64,000 nt of DNA from Vampirovibrio chlorellavorus (GTDB lineage: Bacteria; Cyanobacteriota; Vampirovibrionia; Vampirovibrionales; Vampirovibrionaceae), in the NCBI GenBank assembly GCA_001858525.1, contig LAPX01000013.1, positions 1-64,000 of the forward strand, written 5' to 3'. Within the stretch, counting starts at the first letter, position 1. The number at the start of each line of letters is the position of its first letter. Shown piece after piece: positions 6,811 through 46,412 of this stretch. Both the position numbers and the translations under genes were made by a program. The notes under the pieces were generated by a model. The model was not told the DNA's origin. It did not search any database and saw nothing but the letters and a program-made list of their open reading frames with translations.

Positions 6811-8625
6811 TCAGCGGATGTTCAAAATAATATTGGGCGGGCGGTTGTACAACTCTCGCAGGGTGGTCAAGTCCCGCACGGTGGGGGCTTGAGCCACATC
6901 GGAGCGTAACTCCGGGTAGAGCAGGTCTCCTGGCTTGGAACTGTTACCCTTTAGGCCCAGAGCGTGTCCAAATTCTTTAGCGGCCATGTTTTGAATCAAC
7001 AACTGTGCGGCCTCTGGATTCAGCGTCTTGGTGGGACTCAGCCCCAGAGAGATTTTGGACTCATCCTGTAAAATAGCCAGCTTGCGGTACTGCTGATACT
7101 GTAAACCTGCGGCAGCCGCTTGGGGTACCAGTGAAAAATAACCCGGCGTAAAGGCGGAGGCCATTTGCACCACCGTCAGCAGGGGGCTTCGCTTGGGGGG
7201 CGAGTAGTTTTTGTAAACGTCAGGCACTTTCTCCGGGTCGGCAAAGCGATCGGTGTAGGCTTCGGTCCAGTTCACGATAATATCGGCGGCTTGCGGGTTT
7301 TTGATTTCCAGAAACTTGACGTACCCTTCGGTGCGCTCTTTCCAGATTTCAAAGCCCTTGAGGGCGGCGGTTTTATACTCGGCTTTGTAAAGGGTGTTTG
7401 TGGGTGCGTCCTTGGCGGGCTCTTCAAAGTAAACCCGCAGGGGAAAGCGTCCCCAGCGAACCACTTTGCCATCGGTCACCTTGAAAATCTCATCCAGGTA
7501 ACTGTTTTCCGGATCACTGGAGGGAGATTGGGTCAGGCTAGCGTCCATCGACTCCCCCGTTTGTATGGCGGTCTGAACAGGGTCGCTGCTGTCCATCAGG
7601 CTGCTGTAGACGGTTTTGGTGCGCACGGCCAGCGGGCCGGTTTGGGTCTGTCCCAACACCTGCTGCTCCAGGGTTTCCAGCCGTTGATTGAGGGTGGCTT
7701 TATCCGGCGGGGTGATTTGCAGTTGCGCTTCCATGTCCCGAACCATCTCGTTCACCGACAATTTGGACATACTGGCGGGGGCTTTGCTTCTGGCCTCGGT
7801 TGGGCTGCTGGCAAAACCACCGGGTTTCCCCGAACTGGCCGCACTTTGCCCAGAGGCCAGCAAGCGGTTGGCCACTTGCTGAATGGTAGGAGAGTTATCC
7901 ACGGCCAAGGCCTTGTCCACCCAGCTTTTTCGGTTGGGCAAGTCGTTTTTGCCCTGCCCCAAATAGACATTGGCCAGCGATTGCTTGACCGCCTTGTTGT
8001 TCGGGTCATAGGTCAGGGCCTTTTCCAACAGCGGAACAGCCTCGGCATAGCGCTCCTGAATGGCCAACTGGTAGGCCTCATCCAGGTAGACACCGGCCAT
8101 GGCTTTCTGAAAGGCCAATTCTTGCGGGCTAAGGGCAATGGCCTGCTCCAGCAAGGCCCGCATTTTCTGGTAATCGGCGGTGGTGGGTTGGGCGGTGCTT
8201 TCTTTTAGCGTCATGGCCTGGGCAAAATAGACACTGGCCCGACTGCTTTGAATGCTTTGGGCCGCACTGCTGCCCGGTGTAATGAGGGTCTGGGCTTTGT
8301 TCAGGTACTGAAAGGCGGCCTCAAACTGCTTTTGTTCTTGCAGGCCCACGGCATGGTTGGCGTAAATGACCGCCAGGTTGTTGCGCAGGGTTTTATCGGC
8401 CGGGGCCAGCGGGAGGGCTTTTTCGTAGGCGGCCATGGCGCTGGGGTAGTCCTGCTTGGAGGCCGCCAGATTGCCCTGATTGACCAGCGCTTCCAGGGTG
8501 TCCGTTGCCGCCCATGCGGGTGTATGCCCAAGTGTATAACTGAAGAGGCCTGCCCACAGCAATCCGGCTAAAACGGATCGGAAGCGCCCAAGGCTGATAC
8601 CGGGATGCAGGAAAATGGGATTCAT
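6811..8625 (-). CDS. Secreted TPR protein with degenerate matrixin-like metalloprotease domain
   Basis: Protein of 604 residues. Residues 1-40 are a Sec signal peptide ending ...AWA. Residues 42-260 contain tetratricopeptide-like repeats (YPSAMAAYEKALPL, ERYAEAVPLLEKALTYDPNN). The last 200 residues resemble a matrixin/peptidase M10 fold (RWGRFPLRVYFEEP near residue 395). At the place of HExxHxxGxxH the sequence is KEFGHALGLKGNS (550-562): the first histidine is Lys, the third is missing, and the Met-turn methionine is Leu (DLLYP). It is therefore probably not an active zinc protease. ATG at 8625 has AAGGAG five bases upstream. A homologous domain with an intact site is encoded at 45732-46412. 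A role in protein binding is inference. Confidence 0.8.
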   Translation of the reverse strand: MNPIFLHPGISLGRFRSVLAGLLWAGLFSYTLGHTPAWAATDTLEALVNQGNLAASKQDYPSAMAAYEKALPLAPADKTLRNNLAVIYANHAVGLQEQKQFEAAFQYLNKAQTLITPGSSAAQSIQSSRASVYFAQAMTLKESTAQPTTADYQKMRALLEQAIALSPQELAFQKAMAGVYLDEAYQLAIQERYAEAVPLLEKALTYDPNNKAVKQSLANVYLGQGKNDLPNRKSWVDKALAVDNSPTIQQVANRLLASGQSAASSGKPGGFASSPTEARSKAPASMSKLSVNEMVRDMEAQLQITPPDKATLNQRLETLEQQVLGQTQTGPLAVRTKTVYSSLMDSSDPVQTAIQTGESMDASLTQSPSSDPENSYLDEIFKVTDGKVVRWGRFPLRVYFEEPAKDAPTNTLYKAEYKTAALKGFEIWKERTEGYVKFLEIKNPQAADIIVNWTEAYTDRFADPEKVPDVYKNYSPPKRSPLLTVVQMASAFTPGYFSLVPQAAAAGLQYQQYRKLAILQDESKISLGLSPTKTLNPEAAQLLIQNMAAKEFGHALGLKGNSSKPGDLLYPELRSDVAQAPTVRDLTTLRELYNRPPNIILNIR

Positions 8626-8772: not shown

Positions 8773-11280
8773 ATGGAAACCTCCACTGAGAAGTCTATTT
8801 TACAGATTGACAGCTACCAGCCGCAAGCCATTGAAGCCAAATGGCAAAAGCAATGGGAAGAGACCGGCCTTTATAAGACCGATATCGAAGAATCTCATAT
8901 GCCCAAATACTATGCGCTGTCTATGTTTCCCTATCCATCCGGGCGTTTGCACATGGGCCACGTGCGCAACTACACCATTACCGATGTAATTGCCCGCTTC
9001 AAGCGCATGCACGGCTTTAACGTGCTGCATCCCATGGGCTGGGACAGCTTTGGCCTGCCTGCCGAGAACGCCGCCATCCAGAACAACATCCCTCCAGCGG
9101 ATTGGACGTTTAGCAACATCGATTACATGCGCAAACAGCTCAAACAGCTGGGCCTGGCTGTGGACTGGGATCGGGAAGTGGCCACCTGCAAGGAAGATTA
9201 CTACAAGTGGACGCAGTGGATGTTCCTGTACCTGTACCAGCGGGGCTTGGCTTACAAAAAAGAAGCGCCGGTGAACTGGTGCGAGCAGTGTCATACCGTA
9301 TTGGCCAACGAGCAGGTTATTGACGGCCGTTGCTGGCGGGATGATTCTCTGGTAACCAAGAAAAAGCTGAACCAGTGGTTCTTCAAGACCACCGAATACG
9401 CCGATCGCCTGCTGAAAAATCTGGAGAGCCTGAAGGGCTGGCCAGAGCGGGTCTTGTTAATGCAGAAAAACTGGATTAACAAGTCCATTGGGGCCGAAGT
9501 GGAATTTGCCGTGGAAGGCCGGGATATTAAAATTCCCATTTTTACCACCCGCCCCGATACCATTTTTGGGGTCACCTACATGGTACTGGCCCCGGAACAC
9601 CCACTGGTGGAGCTGCTGGTCAGTGAAGACTACCGGGAATCCGTTCAGCAATACATTGAAAACACCAAGCTGAAGAGCGAAATGGATCGCACCGCCACGG
9701 ACAAGGAAAAAACCGGGCTGCCCTTGGGCATTAACGCCATCAACCCCTATACGGGAGAGGCTATTCCGGTCTGGATTTCCGATTACGTGCTGGTGGAATA
9801 CGGCACTGGGGCGGTCATGGCCGTGCCTGCTCACGATGAGCGTGATTTCGCCTTTGCCCAGAAGTTTCAGTTGCCCATTCGGCGGGTGATCGAGCAGTCT
9901 GGTCAGGCGGGGCAGCCCGGCCAAGCCTTAAAAGCCGCTTACACCGAGCCCGGGGTGTTGATTGCGTCCGGTGAATTTACCGGGCTGGACAGCGAAACGG
10001 CCAAGGAGAAAATCACCAGGCTGGCTCACGACAAGGGCTTTGGCAAAGAAAAAATCCAGTACCGTCTGCGGGATTGGCTGGTTTCCCGGCAACGGTACTG
10101 GGGCACACCCATTCCCATTATTTACTGCGATCATTGCGGGACTGTGCCGGTGCCGGATGAGGATTTGCCGGTGCGCTTGCCCAAGGATGTCGATTTCACG
10201 GTCAAAGGCGTGTCGCCGGTGGCTACCTCGCCTTCGTTCAAAAACGCTCCCTGTCCCAAGTGTGGCACAATGGCCCGGCGAGAAACCGATACCATGGACA
10301 CCTTCGTGGATAGCTCCTGGTACTATTTGCGCTACATCGATCCGCACAATGAGACCAAGCCCTTTGAGCCCCAGCTCATTCACCAGTGGATGCCGGTGGA
10401 TCAATACGTGGGTGGCATTGAGCACGCCATTTTGCACCTCATGTACAGCCGATTCTTTATGATGGCCTTGAGCGACAGCGGCTGGACGGAGCAGGACGAG
10501 CCGTTCAAGAACCTGCTGACCCAGGGCATGGTGCTGAAAGACGGCGCCAAAATGAGCAAGTCCAAGGGCAATATTGTCGATCCCGACGCTATTTTCAAGG
10601 AGTTCGGGGCAGATACGGCCCGATTCTTCATCCTCAGCGATTCCCCGCCCCAAGCGGATTTTGACTGGAAAGAATCCGCCGTGGAAGGCTGCTTTAAGTT
10701 CCTGTGCCGGGTGTGGCGTTGTGTCACCCAGCATCAGAGCGCTATCAGCTTTAGCTTGGCGTTGCCCGCTTACGAGGAGATGTCCGGCGAGACCCGGGAA
10801 CTCTTCCAGTGGACCAACCGTACCGTTGGCGGCATTACCACGGACATTGAGACCCAGTTTCAGTTCAACACGGTCATTAGCAAAATTCGGGAATTTGTGA
10901 ATTACCTGAGTAAATTTGAGCCCGGCGAGGAGCCCAATGCGGTTTACAGCCACGCCATTGCCGCCCTGTTAAAACTGATGGCCCCCATTACCCCGCACTT
11001 GGCCCAGGAACTGTGGGTCATCTCCGGTGGGGATGGTGCTTTGTACACGCAAAGCTGGCCCAAGTGGGACGCGGTAGCCACCCAGTCCGATGTGGTGGAA
11101 ATTGTGGTGCAGGTGAACGGCAAGGTGCGCGATAAGTTCACCGTGGCCAGTGGTTTGCCCCAATCAACACTGGAAGAAATGGCCCGTCAGCGTCCCAAGG
11201 TTATTCAGCAAATTGGCGATCAGCAAGTGGTCAAGGTCATTGTGGTGCCCAACAAGCTGGTTAATATTGTGGCCAAGTAG
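8773..11280 (+). CDS. leuS: Leucine--tRNA ligase
   Basis: Class I aminoacyl-tRNA synthetase of 835 residues that charges tRNA-Leu. The HIGH-type motif is HMGH (60-63) in YPSGRLHMGHVRNYTITD, and KMSKSKGN begins at residue 593. The leucine-specific zinc-domain cysteines (CEQCHTVLANEQV near 165), the CP1 editing domain (about 220-420, with TTRPDTIFG and the Asp in VPAHDERD) and SSWYYLRYIDP are all present. Length is typical for bacterial LeuRS. The gene is complete and stands alone, divergent from the TPR/matrixin gene. Confidence 0.98.
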   Translation: METSTEKSILQIDSYQPQAIEAKWQKQWEETGLYKTDIEESHMPKYYALSMFPYPSGRLHMGHVRNYTITDVIARFKRMHGFNVLHPMGWDSFGLPAENAAIQNNIPPADWTFSNIDYMRKQLKQLGLAVDWDREVATCKEDYYKWTQWMFLYLYQRGLAYKKEAPVNWCEQCHTVLANEQVIDGRCWRDDSLVTKKKLNQWFFKTTEYADRLLKNLESLKGWPERVLLMQKNWINKSIGAEVEFAVEGRDIKIPIFTTRPDTIFGVTYMVLAPEHPLVELLVSEDYRESVQQYIENTKLKSEMDRTATDKEKTGLPLGINAINPYTGEAIPVWISDYVLVEYGTGAVMAVPAHDERDFAFAQKFQLPIRRVIEQSGQAGQPGQALKAAYTEPGVLIASGEFTGLDSETAKEKITRLAHDKGFGKEKIQYRLRDWLVSRQRYWGTPIPIIYCDHCGTVPVPDEDLPVRLPKDVDFTVKGVSPVATSPSFKNAPCPKCGTMARRETDTMDTFVDSSWYYLRYIDPHNETKPFEPQLIHQWMPVDQYVGGIEHAILHLMYSRFFMMALSDSGWTEQDEPFKNLLTQGMVLKDGAKMSKSKGNIVDPDAIFKEFGADTARFFILSDSPPQADFDWKESAVEGCFKFLCRVWRCVTQHQSAISFSLALPAYEEMSGETRELFQWTNRTVGGITTDIETQFQFNTVISKIREFVNYLSKFEPGEEPNAVYSHAIAALLKLMAPITPHLAQELWVISGGDGALYTQSWPKWDAVATQSDVVEIVVQVNGKVRDKFTVASGLPQSTLEEMARQRPKVIQQIGDQQVVKVIVVPNKLVNIVAK

Positions 11281-40799: not shown

Positions 40800-43700
40800 A
40801 TGGGGGTTACAGTGAAGCCAGCGACCCAGCGAATCGCCCTATTGGCGCTTTCCATCGGCATCGCCGGTTACGTCCTGCTGAAATTCATTCCCGCTTTCAT
40901 TGATACGGCAGACATGAAGACCCAAATTGAGGATGGCCTGCACGAGTCCACCGGCGTGCATTTCCAAATCAAGGCCCTCACCCTGGAGCCGACCCTCTTT
41001 CACGGCATTCAGGCCCACCTGAAAACCACGGCCATCACCGATATTCAGCATCATCCACTGGGGCGCATTCAAAACATCACGGTGCAGATTCGCTATTTGC
41101 CGCTGTTCACTCGCCAAACCCCTGAAATCGCCAAGATCCACCTCGATCACGTGCTCATTCCGGTGGGCCAATACAGTTTGTTTAAATCCCTCAAGCTCAA
41201 GCTGGTTAAGCCCAAAAAGACGGGCTTTCTTAACCCGGCCGAGCTGAAGGACGCTGAACTGCTGTTGACCGATTATCTGGTGGAGGACAGCAAGCCGGCC
41301 CCCAGCAGCCGGGTCGATTTCCCGGGCATACAGCGCTTTCGCATTGAGGGTAAAGTATTGTCCCTGCGTCACTTAGAGTCTCAGCGCCCCCTTTCGTTGC
41401 AGGCTCAGGGTCAACTGGCTTACATGGCCAAACGGCCTAAACAGCCAAAAGCCAGTCGAATCCTCATTGCCCCCTATCAGCTGCTGGTGGAAGTGCCTCA
41501 GTCCGTTACTGAGCCCAAACACGTATTTCAGATCACCGATTTCAGTCGCTTGGAACTGACCCTGGGCGGACAGCGGGTTCCCATTGCCTTGATCTACCGA
41601 TACGCTCCCCCACAACTGGCGGAGGCCCACCTGAAGAGCGCCGGACTCAATCTGTCGCAAGCCCAGGCTTTGGCCTTCCAGTTGGCCAATACCATTGGCC
41701 CGCCCCTGCCAGCCTTGCCCTATCGGCTTACCGGTATCACCAGCGCGGATGCCCTCTTTAAGTTCTTTGTCACTCAGGGGAAGCTGGGCCTGAAGACCGC
41801 TCAGGGAAAGCTGAATCTTCAGCAAGTGGCCCTGTACCGTTCGAACAATCCAAACATTCCCCTGCTGAACAACCTGCACGGAGACATTCGCCTGAAGGAT
41901 CAGCAAATACAACTTCATGACGGAGAATTGCTGGCGCAGGGCCTGCCCTTTCGTGTGTCTGGCTGGTACCGACTGGACAGTCAGCGAATGGAAGCGGTTC
42001 TGTTTGGGCGCAACCTGAAGATGGATGCCCTGACGGAAAAGGCGGCGCGCTGGGGTGTTCCTGCATCGGCGCTCAAGGGCCGTACCGTGCGGGGACTGCT
42101 GGATCTCAGCGCCTACCTCAGTGGCACTTTGAACAACCCTAAATACAAGGGGCTGTTGGTATTGCGTAATGGCGCTTTCTCCGATACCAGCCTTGGGCTT
42201 CAGACCCAAAAACTGCAAGGGCGCCTGGCGTTCAATGGAACAGGCTTTATCGCACCGCTCATCGCCTATGCCGGGCAACTCCTCATCCCGCAGGGGAGTC
42301 TGAAATTACCCCAACAGGGTCTGACCGTGGAACAGTTTCAAGGCAAAGTCGATTTTAAGGGGCAGGCCCGTCCCTTGTCCGGCAAGCTGGCAGTGCCCGA
42401 TTTACAGGGCTTGCTGGCCTTTCAAAAGGGCCGTTATCAGGACCCCAAGTATCCGGCACCCGTCACCGATTTACACGGAACCCTTCATTTGCTGGGACCG
42501 TGGATTCAACTGGATGACATCCGGGGCACATTGGGGGGCAGCGTTTTCAAGGCCCAGGGCAAGCTGGCCACCAATTTAAAGCAATATCAGTTGCAACTGA
42601 CCGGAAAAGACATTGATATTCCCCGCTTCAGCCGGGAAGTATTGGTCAAATTTCCAGAGCTCCAGCCCTTTGCTGATGCCATCAAGCCTTACAGCGGTTT
42701 GGCTAACCTGAATATGACCATCCAGACCGGCTTACAGCTCGCTGGAGCGCTGGATATCAAATCGCTGGCCTTGCAAACCGCGGATCCACACAGTCCCATT
42801 CAGGCGCCCCATTTGGCCCTGCGCTTTAACGGCAACACCCTAACACTGGCCGATACCACCGTTTTATACGGCCCACTGGCTGCCCGCATTGGCGGCACGG
42901 CCAATACCCAGGGCGCTTACAATGTTCGTCTGAACACCGACCCCATTCCCGTGGCCTTTGTCCGGGATCAGCAGTTGTGGCTGGAGGCCCTGAGTGGCCT
43001 TGATTTTCCTGAAATCTGGAATACCGCAGGCGATTTTAGTTTGTCTGGCACCGTGAGCAACCGGCAAAAAGCCCTGAATGCCCAGTTTCATGAGGCAGGC
43101 CTGTCTTGGGCGGGTGGGGATTTCCCGCTGTATGACCTGAACGGGGCGCTTCAGTATCGGCAGCAGGGTAAGGCCGTTCCCACCCTGCAAAGCCAGAACC
43201 TCACTTTCAAGTACGGCAACTCTCCCATGAGCCTGAGCCTGCAGCAGGGGCCGGGCACGCATGCCGAGTTGCAGGGGATGCTTTCTGACTTGCTGGTGAA
43301 TCATTGGCTGGTCAGCCCGCAAAGCAACGCTGCTCCCTATCAGGCCATGCCCTTTAAAATCAATGTCAATGGCAAGCTAGTGGCCCTGCCCGGCCAGCCG
43401 GGTTCGGGGAAAAATGATCTGGCGTCTACTGTTTTTGTGGGCCTCAGCCAGAATTTCCGGCAAGCCTACGCCGGGGTGACCCCCTCGACGCCCTCGTCCC
43501 CACCCGGTACGACCGCTGTGGGCCCTGCACAGGCCACGGTGCCCAGCAAGGAAAGTGCCCCCAATATCCTGGGAGACGCCGCCAAGCGGGATAACTTGCA
43601 AAATATCAACGCCATTAACGCTGCCAATACGGCGCTGGGGGCCGCTTCTAACACCGTGGAAAGAGTCCGGCAAACCGTGGGCAAAAGCCTGGATCTGGGG

Positions 43701-45344
43701 TTGACTACCCTGAAAAAACCGGGCCAGTTTATTACTCAAAAATTGCTGGAAAAACCCCATGAATCCGTGGAAACACAGGCCATTGAACCTGAAAAATTAC
43801 CGGCTCCTTTGCAACTTGAGAATACAAGTGAAGACAGCGGCCGAGCCTTCTTAAACGGCCAATTCAAGTTGATTGGCAACGAACTGCGCCTGACACAGGC
43901 CAACTTGCACCTGTTTGATGGGGGCGACATTGTGGCTGAAGGCAGCCTGCAACAGTTGAATCAGCCGGAGCAGTCCCCCTATCGCCTCCATGTGGTCACT
44001 GTGCCGGAAGTCAATCTGGCCGGTATCAGTCAGGGAGCGTTGAAAAACAGCTTTTTTCAGGGAGCTAAAGGCACTTTTGGGGCCGATTTAACCCTGTCGG
44101 GTGGGGGAGAGAACCCCCGGCAGCTGAACGGCTGGCTGGCCTCCAACCGGTTGGAGGTTCCTTACCTCACCTTGCAGGACATCACCGCCCGGCTGGACTT
44201 TGCCGGGGAGACCGCTCAAATTGATGTGCCCAGCTTTAAAGTGCCGGGTGTCACCGCCCGCATGACTGCTCGCTCCGAGAACGTCTTTGAAATCCCCGTT
44301 CCTCTGGAAGCGGTGACCGTGAATGGCAGCTTTGTCAGCATTGAAAGTCTCAGTGAATTTAACAACACCATTGTGAAGCCCATTCTTATCGATCAGGTGG
44401 CTCATAATTACCTGCGGCCCTGGCAACAAGGCGATCCGACCTCTGCCGTGCAATTCCGCAACGGCGATTTGCAGGTGGATGAAGTCATCTACCAAAACGT
44501 TATTCTGAGCAATTTACGCAGCAAGCTGTCCCTCAATGGCAACAGCTTTCTGGAGTTGACCGATACCCGGCTGGATGCCGCCGGGGGGCAGGTCAGTGGC
44601 TATCTATCCCTCAGCCCCAACGAGAACAGCTTTACCACCCTGGATCTCAATGCCAACGGGGTCAAGGCCAACGCTTTAACCAAAGCCTTGTTGAACGTCA
44701 CCAACCAGATTTTCGGGGATCTCAGCGGCACGGTTCGCTTTACCACCTTTGGGCAATCCGATATAGATATGCAGAAAAACGCCAACGGGACAGTCAGCCT
44801 GAAGGTTACCAATGGTCGTTTACCAGCCATTGCCAAGGTGGAAACCCTCTTGGCCACGGCCAACGTCTTTCGGGGCGGGGTGCTGGGCTTTAACCTGAAC
44901 AACCTGTTCCGCTCCCTGACCTTTTACGACACCAACTACTTTGCCGAGCTGAGCGGCGATATGCTGATTAACAACCAGATTTTATACACCCAAAATCTGG
45001 TTAGCGATGGGGTCAATCTGGATTTGCTCATTCAGGGCAGTCTGCGGATGGACAACGGGAACGCCAACATGCTGATTAACGGGCGCATGAGCCAGAATAT
45101 TGCCGGGAAACTGGGCGCTTTCGGTAATTTAAGCCTGGGACGCTTGCTGAGTTACGTGCCTGCTCTGGGCAATCTGGGGGAACACCGGCCTGGCCTGCTG
45201 GGGTACATTCCGGGGGTGGGTTATGTGCCAGGCTTTGGGGGCCCAGCCAAGAAGTTTAATCGTTTTCAGGTGCGATTGGTGGGTCAGCCGGATGATCCCA
45301 ACGCTATTCAGGATTTTCGCTGGATTCGACCCCAAAATCTATAA
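40800..45344 (+). CDS. AsmA/TamB-like envelope protein
   Basis: Very long protein of 1514 residues with one N-terminal membrane helix (about 12-32) and a long beta-rich periplasmic region with weak repeats, as in the AsmA/TamB/YhdP group thought to bridge the periplasm for phospholipid transport. AsmA-like features include the N-terminal LKALTLEP.LFHGIQAHLKTTAI type repeats and a C-terminal LSLNGNSFLELTDTRLDAAGGQVSGYLSL...NGRMSQNIAG...FQVRLVGQPDDPN segment. A Pro/Ser/Thr-rich, low-complexity part lies near 895-920. The ATG at 40800 sits directly on AAGG; the GTG at 40812, with GGGGG five bases before it, may be the true start. It follows tatA by 98 bases. Confidence 0.85.
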   Translation: MGVTVKPATQRIALLALSIGIAGYVLLKFIPAFIDTADMKTQIEDGLHESTGVHFQIKALTLEPTLFHGIQAHLKTTAITDIQHHPLGRIQNITVQIRYLPLFTRQTPEIAKIHLDHVLIPVGQYSLFKSLKLKLVKPKKTGFLNPAELKDAELLLTDYLVEDSKPAPSSRVDFPGIQRFRIEGKVLSLRHLESQRPLSLQAQGQLAYMAKRPKQPKASRILIAPYQLLVEVPQSVTEPKHVFQITDFSRLELTLGGQRVPIALIYRYAPPQLAEAHLKSAGLNLSQAQALAFQLANTIGPPLPALPYRLTGITSADALFKFFVTQGKLGLKTAQGKLNLQQVALYRSNNPNIPLLNNLHGDIRLKDQQIQLHDGELLAQGLPFRVSGWYRLDSQRMEAVLFGRNLKMDALTEKAARWGVPASALKGRTVRGLLDLSAYLSGTLNNPKYKGLLVLRNGAFSDTSLGLQTQKLQGRLAFNGTGFIAPLIAYAGQLLIPQGSLKLPQQGLTVEQFQGKVDFKGQARPLSGKLAVPDLQGLLAFQKGRYQDPKYPAPVTDLHGTLHLLGPWIQLDDIRGTLGGSVFKAQGKLATNLKQYQLQLTGKDIDIPRFSREVLVKFPELQPFADAIKPYSGLANLNMTIQTGLQLAGALDIKSLALQTADPHSPIQAPHLALRFNGNTLTLADTTVLYGPLAARIGGTANTQGAYNVRLNTDPIPVAFVRDQQLWLEALSGLDFPEIWNTAGDFSLSGTVSNRQKALNAQFHEAGLSWAGGDFPLYDLNGALQYRQQGKAVPTLQSQNLTFKYGNSPMSLSLQQGPGTHAELQGMLSDLLVNHWLVSPQSNAAPYQAMPFKINVNGKLVALPGQPGSGKNDLASTVFVGLSQNFRQAYAGVTPSTPSSPPGTTAVGPAQATVPSKESAPNILGDAAKRDNLQNINAINAANTALGAASNTVERVRQTVGKSLDLGLTTLKKPGQFITQKLLEKPHESVETQAIEPEKLPAPLQLENTSEDSGRAFLNGQFKLIGNELRLTQANLHLFDGGDIVAEGSLQQLNQPEQSPYRLHVVTVPEVNLAGISQGALKNSFFQGAKGTFGADLTLSGGGENPRQLNGWLASNRLEVPYLTLQDITARLDFAGETAQIDVPSFKVPGVTARMTARSENVFEIPVPLEAVTVNGSFVSIESLSEFNNTIVKPILIDQVAHNYLRPWQQGDPTSAVQFRNGDLQVDEVIYQNVILSNLRSKLSLNGNSFLELTDTRLDAAGGQVSGYLSLSPNENSFTTLDLNANGVKANALTKALLNVTNQIFGDLSGTVRFTTFGQSDIDMQKNANGTVSLKVTNGRLPAIAKVETLLATANVFRGGVLGFNLNNLFRSLTFYDTNYFAELSGDMLINNQILYTQNLVSDGVNLDLLIQGSLRMDNGNANMLINGRMSQNIAGKLGAFGNLSLGRLLSYVPALGNLGEHRPGLLGYIPGVGYVPGFGGPAKKFNRFQVRLVGQPDDPNAIQDFRWIRPQNL

Positions 45345-45538
45345 GATCATTCTGTAGAGCCCGACTTTGCATTTCTTTGAAATGTAACATTTCTATAATT
45401 TATATATAAAATGCCTTCAGTTCAGTGACCAATCAGCCGAAGGACACCATAAGGTCAGAGTAGTTTTCAGTCAGAATGACACCCCTGACTGGTTCATTCC
45501 CTCGCATTATCAACCGTGGCAATCGCCAGGAGTGCATT

Positions 45539-45715
45539 ATGTCCACACGTCCCGCGCAAAACAAGATGTCTGCCAAACGGGCCAGCAAACTGGCCAGACA
45601 GACCCACTCGGATCTCTTCAATATTTTCGATGAGTTCACCGGCATTATCTCCGGAGAACTGAAGTCGATGAATCTGGAGCAGTTTGAGGCCGAAAACCCG
45701 CAAAAGCCGTCTTAA
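45539..45715 (+). CDS. Small hypothetical protein, 58 residues
   Basis: ATG at 45539 has AGGAG seven bases upstream, one of the best ribosome sites in the window. The product is basic in its first half (RPAQNKMSAKRASKLARQ) and acidic in the second. No signal peptide, membrane helix or known family. It ends 17 bases before the matrixin gene, so both are probably on one mRNA. The upstream gap 45345-45538 is AT-rich, with several TATAAT-like boxes near 45392-45410 that could be its promoter. Confidence 0.65.
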   Translation: MSTRPAQNKMSAKRASKLARQTHSDLFNIFDEFTGIISGELKSMNLEQFEAENPQKPS

Positions 45716-45731
45716 CAGCAATCGGTTGAAG

Positions 45732-46412
45732 ATGAACATTCCCCCGCAGTCTCGACAGCCCAAGTCCACAGGCCAGTCCGCCCCGCCTTTATCCGTGAAT
45801 AATTTTAAGCTGGAAACCCTGCGCCAAAGCATTGAGCACAATCCGCTGGCCGCCCTCGGTGCCTTGGGTGCCTGGCGAGCGGAATCCACACAAACCACAG
45901 CGCAAGCGGTGCGGTGGCCTCTGGAGCAGATGCCTCTGAGTGTTTGGCTCCCCGCATCGACGGATCAGAGCTTGCCCGGCGTGCCATCCCTTTTTGCCGC
46001 CCTGCGCCAATGGGAAATGGGCACGGATGGACTGATTCGCTTTCGACTGATGGACCCCAACACAGAGTCCGTGGAGCAAGCCCACATTGAATTCTGTTGG
46101 TCCCGAGAAACAACCAAAGGCCGAGATTACGAAGTGGGCCACGCCAACCGGGAGGTGCAGGGCAGCCGTATTCGCCGGGTGACCATTACCCTGATTCAGG
46201 AACCCCTGATTGATGGGCATCTCTCCCCAGCCCAGAGACAGTCTCGCCTGCTGGCCACCGTAATGCACGAAGTGGGCCACGCTTTGGGGTTGGAGCACTC
46301 AGAAAGCAGTCAGGATGTTATGTTCTATCGGGGGTGGCGTCGGGAGCAACTCAGCCCCAACGATCTTCGACGGATCAAAGATCTCTATCAGCAGGGCAGA
46401 ACTCAGGCCTGA
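45732..46412 (+). CDS. Matrixin-family zinc metalloprotease domain protein
   Basis: Protein of 226 residues whose C-terminal half carries a complete metzincin zinc site HEVGHALGLEH (179-189) followed by the Met-turn DVMFY, as in peptidase family M10. Upstream is the usual strand region (MPLSVWLP..., TDGLIRFRLMDP..., AHIEFCW). No signal peptide is visible with ATG at 45732 (MNIPPQSRQ), and the first 25 residues are polar and Pro/Gln-rich, so either it acts inside the cell or export is non-classical. An earlier in-frame start (45684) adds no signal either. Its fold matches the dead domain of the protein at 6811-8625. Confidence 0.85.
   Translation: MNIPPQSRQPKSTGQSAPPLSVNNFKLETLRQSIEHNPLAALGALGAWRAESTQTTAQAVRWPLEQMPLSVWLPASTDQSLPGVPSLFAALRQWEMGTDGLIRFRLMDPNTESVEQAHIEFCWSRETTKGRDYEVGHANREVQGSRIRRVTITLIQEPLIDGHLSPAQRQSRLLATVMHEVGHALGLEHSESSQDVMFYRGWRREQLSPNDLRRIKDLYQQGRTQA

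Follow-up and report, generated by a model that had tools for sequence, protein, structure and literature searches.

Metallopeptidase domains that have been inactivated and are kept for binding are described for ADAM11/22/23, AEBP1, Ebp1, and Goe in the portions of PMC11266112 considered here (the abstract and the section on other pseudometallopeptidases), where Ebp1 and Tma108 also provide precedents for binding through a pseudo-active site. Those proteins are eukaryotic and belong to M12, M14, M24, or M13, whereas the protein analyzed here is bacterial and of the M10 type. A word search of these same portions returned no M10 or bacterial metzincin example, and prokaryotic M16B homologues were mentioned. 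In the part of Lenart et al. (2013) drawn on here (PMC3650047), substituted HExxH motifs in zincins are non-random, with His to Arg/Lys and Glu to Gln replacements above expectation, and the role of the Lys/Arg replacements is described as not clear. The Lys, Arg, and HQ families reported below fit this trend; however, that study surveyed whole domain families and CLCAs, and in the same part of its text the string "cyanobacteri" had no occurrence and the TPR-matrixins of the class treated here were absent.

With respect to architecture, BepA of Escherichia coli is a periplasmic M48 protease with TPRs, which shows chaperone-like activity beside proteolysis according to the consulted part of PMC8423444. 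The protein analyzed here would similarly combine a metallopeptidase domain with TPRs at a predicted location outside the inner membrane. We draw a functional analogy only and claim no homology. BepA, unlike our protein, has an intact zinc site, and M48 was not among the 23 Pfam families listed for our protein at E ≤ 1. The fold of our C-terminal domain is that of karilysin and vertebrate MMPs, which were among the best solved-structure matches by profile and by model. In contrast to these, two of the zinc His (the first and the third) are missing from our protein, as is the Met of the Met-turn, and it carries N-terminal TPRs and a helical insert of ~40 residues.

The window, i.e., the whole 64,000-nucleotide stretch that was analyzed, comprises positions 1-64000 of contig C7 of Vampirovibrio chlorellavorus, and the genome searched amounted to 3,030,228 bases in 28 contigs. 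The features of the gene and of two further genes are listed in Table 1. We consider it probable that the gene encodes an exported pseudoprotease consisting of an N-terminal TPR solenoid, a small helical module, and a C-terminal matrixin domain that has lost its catalytic zinc site but whose fold is kept under selection, and that this protein works by binding.

Table 1. Coordinates of the putative pseudoprotease gene, its parts, and two other genes in the window.
Feature	Residues	Position	Strand	Basis and remarks
Gene for TPR protein with matrixin-like domain (putative TPR-pseudomatrixin)	1-604	6811..8625	-	604 aa, ATG start; ORF, Pfam TPR and Peptidase_M10; orthologues in 9/10 family genomes
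Hydrophobic N-terminus, putative Sec-type signal sequence	about 1-40	8506..8625	-	Hydropathy peak VLAGLLWAGLFSYTL
TPR-type helical solenoid	42-260	7846..8502	-	Pfam TPR families; AlphaFold helices 44-260, pLDDT mostly about 87-97
LEqqvLGqtqtGpL-type helical module	291-344	7594..7755	-	Alignment of orthologues, paralogue and relative sequences
Matrixin-like domain	376-604	6814..7500	-	PF00413; karilysin/MMP-1 profile matches; karilysin structural match
Conserved helical insert within the matrixin-like domain	481-522	7060..7185	-	Model helices H481-492 and H496-522
Broken zinc motif KEFGHALGLKGN	550-561	6943..6978	-	ORF translation and orthologue alignment
Met-turn position, Leu	569	6919..6921	-	Column L 4, M 4, R 1 among 9 orthologues
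leuS, divergent neighbor (context, outside the function)		8773..11280	+	Adjoins the gene at 7/9 orthologous loci, the window's own included
Intact matrixin cousin, HEVGHALGLEHS, without hydrophobic N-terminus		45732..46412	+	ORF, ATG at 45732; compared, unlikely as a partner

A hydrophobic N-terminal segment was present in the window protein and in all nine orthologues, itself included, as judged by hydropathy only, which agrees with the signal peptide named in the preliminary description; by eye, cleavage would occur after AWA. The orthologue of genome G003 (L051) has the N-terminus LMLLAACASA, which is lipobox-like by eye, and some orthologues may be lipoproteins. No Pfam name was returned for the helical module at residues 291-344. 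A module of the form LExxvFGxxxxGxLxxR was repeated, by eye, in several matrixins of the class, both intact and broken (window 7594-7755, C23:40k, L026, and L027).

We analyzed the fold of the C-terminal half by profile and structure comparison. Peptidase_M10 (PF00413) matched residues 409-593 with 28.9 bits against a cut-off of 24, and several TPR families matched the N-terminal half. All 14 members of alignment A3 matched PF00413 at E ≤ 0.1. A profile built from the nine orthologous domains retrieved karilysin (3.2e-8) and the fibroblast collagenase MMP-1 (9.6e-8) among solved structures, establishing the homology. The AlphaFold model of the window protein, made with 14 sequences, had a mean pLDDT of 78.4 and a pTM of 0.42. 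In it, residues 44-260 form a TPR-like solenoid and residues 376-604 a metzincin-like domain, and the pLDDT is below 50 at 1-39, 261-278, and 346-369. The model superposed on karilysin with Z 13.1 and rmsd 2.6 over 142 aligned residues, spanning model residues 378-594. The best 50 Foldseek PDB matches were TPR and other helical-repeat proteins with no matrixin, and the matrixin structural matches were taken from a second look at Foldseek's matches. On these profiles and the predicted structure, the C-terminal domain belongs to the M10/matrixin fold family, and the unrelated fold that would have overturned the preliminary description was not what the prediction gave. Of the 42 columns in the helical insert, seven were invariant among the nine orthologues, and the model has a pLDDT of about 53-78 over much of it, giving modest confidence there. 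We had also considered that the loss of the substrate-binding edge strand preceded that of the zinc site; this idea was dropped, because the region is strandless in the model but has a pLDDT of about 53-74, and "NYTPPK" could align with the edge-strand region of MMPs, hence no claim is made.

Next, we examined the zinc site. Residues 550-570 read KEFGHALGLKGNS...DLLY, which departs from the active M10 pattern HExxHxxGxxH (HExxHxxGxxGH in most relatives). K550 stands for the first zinc His, E551 and H554 are kept, N561 stands for the third His, and L569 for the Met-turn Met; the translation thus reproduces exactly the three substitutions that had been noted before. The KEFGH variant, whose search in relatives had been suggested, was common to all four sequences found in the genus. 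Across the nine orthologues, the site was broken in eight, differently by genus. The motifs were KEFGHALGLKGNS..DLL in the window protein (G000), KEFGHALGLKGSS..DLL in both G004 and G001, KEFGHALGLKGTS..DLL in G003, YQFGHTLGLKGIS..DLM in G007, HHMGHALGLKAES..DIM in G006, YEFGHALGLKGAS..DIM in G005, and YEFGQILGLKGLS..DIR in G008. Only G009, with HEFGHALGIKAHS..DLM, retained all zinc ligands together with the Glu and the Met; some members of the orthologue family may therefore still be proteases. Counted by position, the third His was lost in eight orthologues, the first His in seven, the Met in five, the Glu in two, and the second His in one. Thus, only the third His was lost in all eight broken orthologues, and the other losses were scattered. 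Its column (561) was the most variable of the 229 domain columns, with eight residue types in nine sequences. Ranked from the most variable, the first-His column was 87th, the Met column 105th, the Glu column 142nd, and the second-His column 186th, indicating that these four columns alone do not show a loss of constraint. Since the second His (8/9) and the Glu (7/9) were rather well kept, the decay of the site is partial. Invariant in the nine domains were N546, A549, G553, L556, G557, K559, S562, D567, and P571.

Orthologues without internal stops were found in nine of the ten family genomes, one in each (E ≤ 1e-10); the exception was G002, which is 76% complete. When 289 genomes of the class were searched with a profile (E ≤ 1e-12), these nine were found and, in addition, four f4 and two f11 genomes. 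The proteins of G004, G003, and G001 were 57-89% identical to the window protein. Residues 537-560, corresponding to the old catalytic helix, were identical in G000, G004, and G003, and 23 of the 24 were shared by G001. For G000 against G004, the only clearly unsaturated pair (other pairs were near saturation), dN/dS by NG86 was 0.045 in the matrixin domain, 0.113 in the TPRs, and 0.177 in the linker; YN00 gave 0.056, 0.150, and 0.094, respectively. In these sequence comparisons, no other part of the protein is as constrained as the matrixin domain, which is under purifying selection. The open frame in all nine orthologues together with this strong constraint led us to reject a sequencing error or a pseudogene.

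Trees were built with the catalytic positions masked. The nine orthologues formed one clade (100/99), which was sister to eight intact f4/f9 matrixins (97/90; 98/88 in the 57-row tree). These nearest relatives (L026, L027, L028, L034, L040, L074, L077, and L079) differ from the orthologue group in that all eight keep HExxH...H...M, and they are shorter, with no TPR region seen by eye. Because the sister clade was intact throughout, the ancestor of the window family was probably intact as well. In a scan of the nine orthologues and five f4/f9 proteins, each TPR family matched at most 9 of these 14 sequences. An AU test did not reject the eight broken orthologues as one clade (p 0.547), so that one and several losses of the third His were not separated, and a LeuS tree left the deep branches of the family unresolved. 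The branching of family f8 differed between the trees, with support of 51/0 and, in the 57-row tree, 87/72. The trees contain long branches (the genome's own paralogues, f6_G200, and HQ_G009); four long rows, own_cousin45k, own_C8_52k, own_C26_201k, and own_C8_78k, were left out of the 57-row tree, which took 7 of the 10 g68 and 7 of the 8 HQ sequences. One sequence, f2_G016_L045, was absent from the trees, as the motif expression had missed it. The rows were chosen from hits and motif searches; therefore, the broken share of 34/61 is not a rate.

By the alignments and the model, the window protein is a peptidase homologue that lacks catalytic residues, with a fold maintained by selection, and it probably no longer cleaves peptides. 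A kept fold, a site broken in eight of nine orthologues, and a domain under stronger constraint than the rest of the protein point to a maintained pseudoprotease, probably a binding or scaffold protein of the envelope. This supports the earlier description of a TPR-bearing pseudoprotease that probably lies outside the inner membrane. Mechanistically, the protein would leave the cytoplasm through Sec and reach the periplasm or a site farther out. There, the TPRs might grip one partner, and the matrixin face, to which the old catalytic helix, the insert, and the C-terminal helix would contribute, might grip another. The protein could thereby serve the cell envelope, or the apparatus for secretion/predation, as a scaffold or a chaperone-like adaptor.

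Two other readings concern the fate of the domain itself. The residues lost differ by genus, resembling decay after function loss, as would be expected if a former protease were kept only for its TPR half with the dead domain as a passenger. We regard this as quite improbable, since the matrixin domain is more constrained than the TPRs by the dN/dS values above, and 9 of 24 columns in its C-terminal helix region are invariant across the nine genomes. It is more improbable still that the protein is an enzyme with a rebuilt active site, using other metal ligands or acting as a metal-free hydrolase. The conservation of Glu551 and His554 in the genus, and the fixation of Lys550 in its four sequences, would favor such an enzyme. 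However, the other genera have Tyr or His at position 550, G006 and G007 lack Glu551, and G008 lacks His554. The alternative ligand set raised earlier was also looked for: there was no invariant His or Cys in the nine orthologous domains, and hence no conserved replacement set was seen.

A further reading casts the protein as an inhibitor of, or a decoy for, an active matrixin: its dead domain would capture substrates or the partner of an active paralogue that is exported, such as the TPR-matrixin C26:199k. Pseudopeptidases sometimes regulate active cousins (the same portions of PMC11266112), and active paralogues with signal-like N-termini, as seen by eye, are present in the genome. Nevertheless, no active matrixin gene was seen paired with the gene at its locus, where the conserved neighbor is leuS, and the properties of the copy at 45732 also stand against this reading, which we consider unlikely in general. 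That copy, proposed in the preliminary description as a possible partner, is a real ORF whose HEVGHALGLEHS...M motif is intact. With 10 matrixin loci in the genome, the presence of two in one window is unremarkable, and the copy is one of nine besides the window gene. By motif, seven loci, the copy among them, are intact, one is a Met-turn variant, and the remaining two, encoding the window protein and C23:40k (HQLGH), are broken. The alignment of the two domains that had been reported held through the family profile; however, a direct search of the genome with the window domain at E ≤ 1 did not return the copy, and the nearest paralogue was C26:199115. Best matches of the copy occurred in all ten family genomes, all with HExxH, two of them (G002 and G007) spanning a stop codon. 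None of these ten relatives had a strongly hydrophobic N-terminus: the highest 15-residue mean was 0.44-1.24, compared with 1.67-2.81 in the nine window orthologues, suggesting, on hydropathy only, that the copy probably resides in another compartment. The two genes were near each other only in G000 and G004; elsewhere, they were on another contig (distance unproven) or more than 500 kb apart on the same one. Both are nearly universal in the family (9/10 and 10/10), and their co-occurrence says nothing either way. Because the two proteins probably sit in different compartments and their genes show no linkage in most relatives, a dedicated pair is unlikely, and we rejected a special pairing with this copy; one of the exported active paralogues could be a partner. 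Within window positions 40800-46412, the copy adjoins a long protein that looks TamB-like, and a similar protein end lies beside the relative of the copy in G009 (L113).

The probable pseudoprotease at this locus is accompanied by other broken matrixins in the class. In the same genome, C23:40423-41697 (L064, L118) has HQLGHAIGLWGHS, in which the catalytic Glu is replaced by Gln and the zinc His residues are kept. Its orthologues occur in 8 of the 10 family genomes, all eight with HQxxH and the zinc-binding His kept. In family f8, a TPR-matrixin was found in 10 of 11 genomes (L029, L030, L036, L038, L039, L041, L085, L086, L088, and L089), each time with RExGHxLGLWGFS (RExxH...F). The motif extends to RExGHxLGLWGFSPNP in 10/10, a stronger conservation than in the window family. 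The f8 domain matched Peptidase_M10 at E ≤ 1 in all six sequences scanned, the first with 23.8 bits, just below the cut-off of 24, and the f8 profile aligned with the window family profile at 97.8% probability; a structure model of f8 with pLDDT 56.5 was left out of the evidence. A pattern search of 386 genomes of the phylum gave 15 with a hit, ten being genus g68 of f6, whose ten sequences (L132-L141) have QEIGHxxGLxG[KA]S (QExxH...K/A) and C-terminal TPR-like repeats by eye. Two hits lay outside the class (G306 and G323), and their ORFs were not matrixin-like by eye. The search used exact degenerate patterns, in which the first position covered neither CGY arginine nor any tyrosine codon; absence beyond the class therefore carries little weight.

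In the 57-row tree, the broken state needs seven changes, at least four of them forced by well-supported branches, a count that does not tell loss from gain. On general grounds, regain of a zinc site would be improbable. For the class of Vampirovibrio as a whole, the case is evenly balanced that matrixins joined to TPR or related helical modules repeatedly became conserved pseudoproteases, in at least four orthologous families (that of the window protein, the HQxxH family of the same genome, f8 with RExxH...F, and g68 with QExxH...K/A), and serve as a general non-catalytic capture module of the envelope. If so, protease counts of such genomes are overstated, and the window family, in which a single member is intact and eight are broken in various ways, would allow stepwise tracing from protease to binder.

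Most described pseudopeptidases are eukaryotic and belong to families outside M10, and we did not find broken matrixins of this class in the open-licence literature as searched by title or the start of the abstract. Here, several of them are retained by V. chlorellavorus, a cyanobacterium that is predatory and does not photosynthesize, and by its relatives, one family forming a natural series from intact to fully broken, so that the role of a protease fold after it stops cutting becomes testable with natural variants. Annotation pipelines may count such pseudoproteases as proteases. In the part of PMC4451040 consulted, the published V. chlorellavorus genome is given 106 (table) or 108 (text) proteases/peptidases, discussed for prey ingestion; the window protein may be listed under a peptidase name in its supplementary peptidase table.

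Single broken matrixins were also observed, namely REIGHSLGLRGHS in G165 and HQIGHALGIGGHS in G200, listed as L142 and L127, respectively. Within the V. chlorellavorus genome, the matrixin at C28:153586-154008 (L060), HETTHAIGLIHGHS, keeps its zinc ligands (HExxH...H) and has DALY, with Ala for the Met-turn Met.
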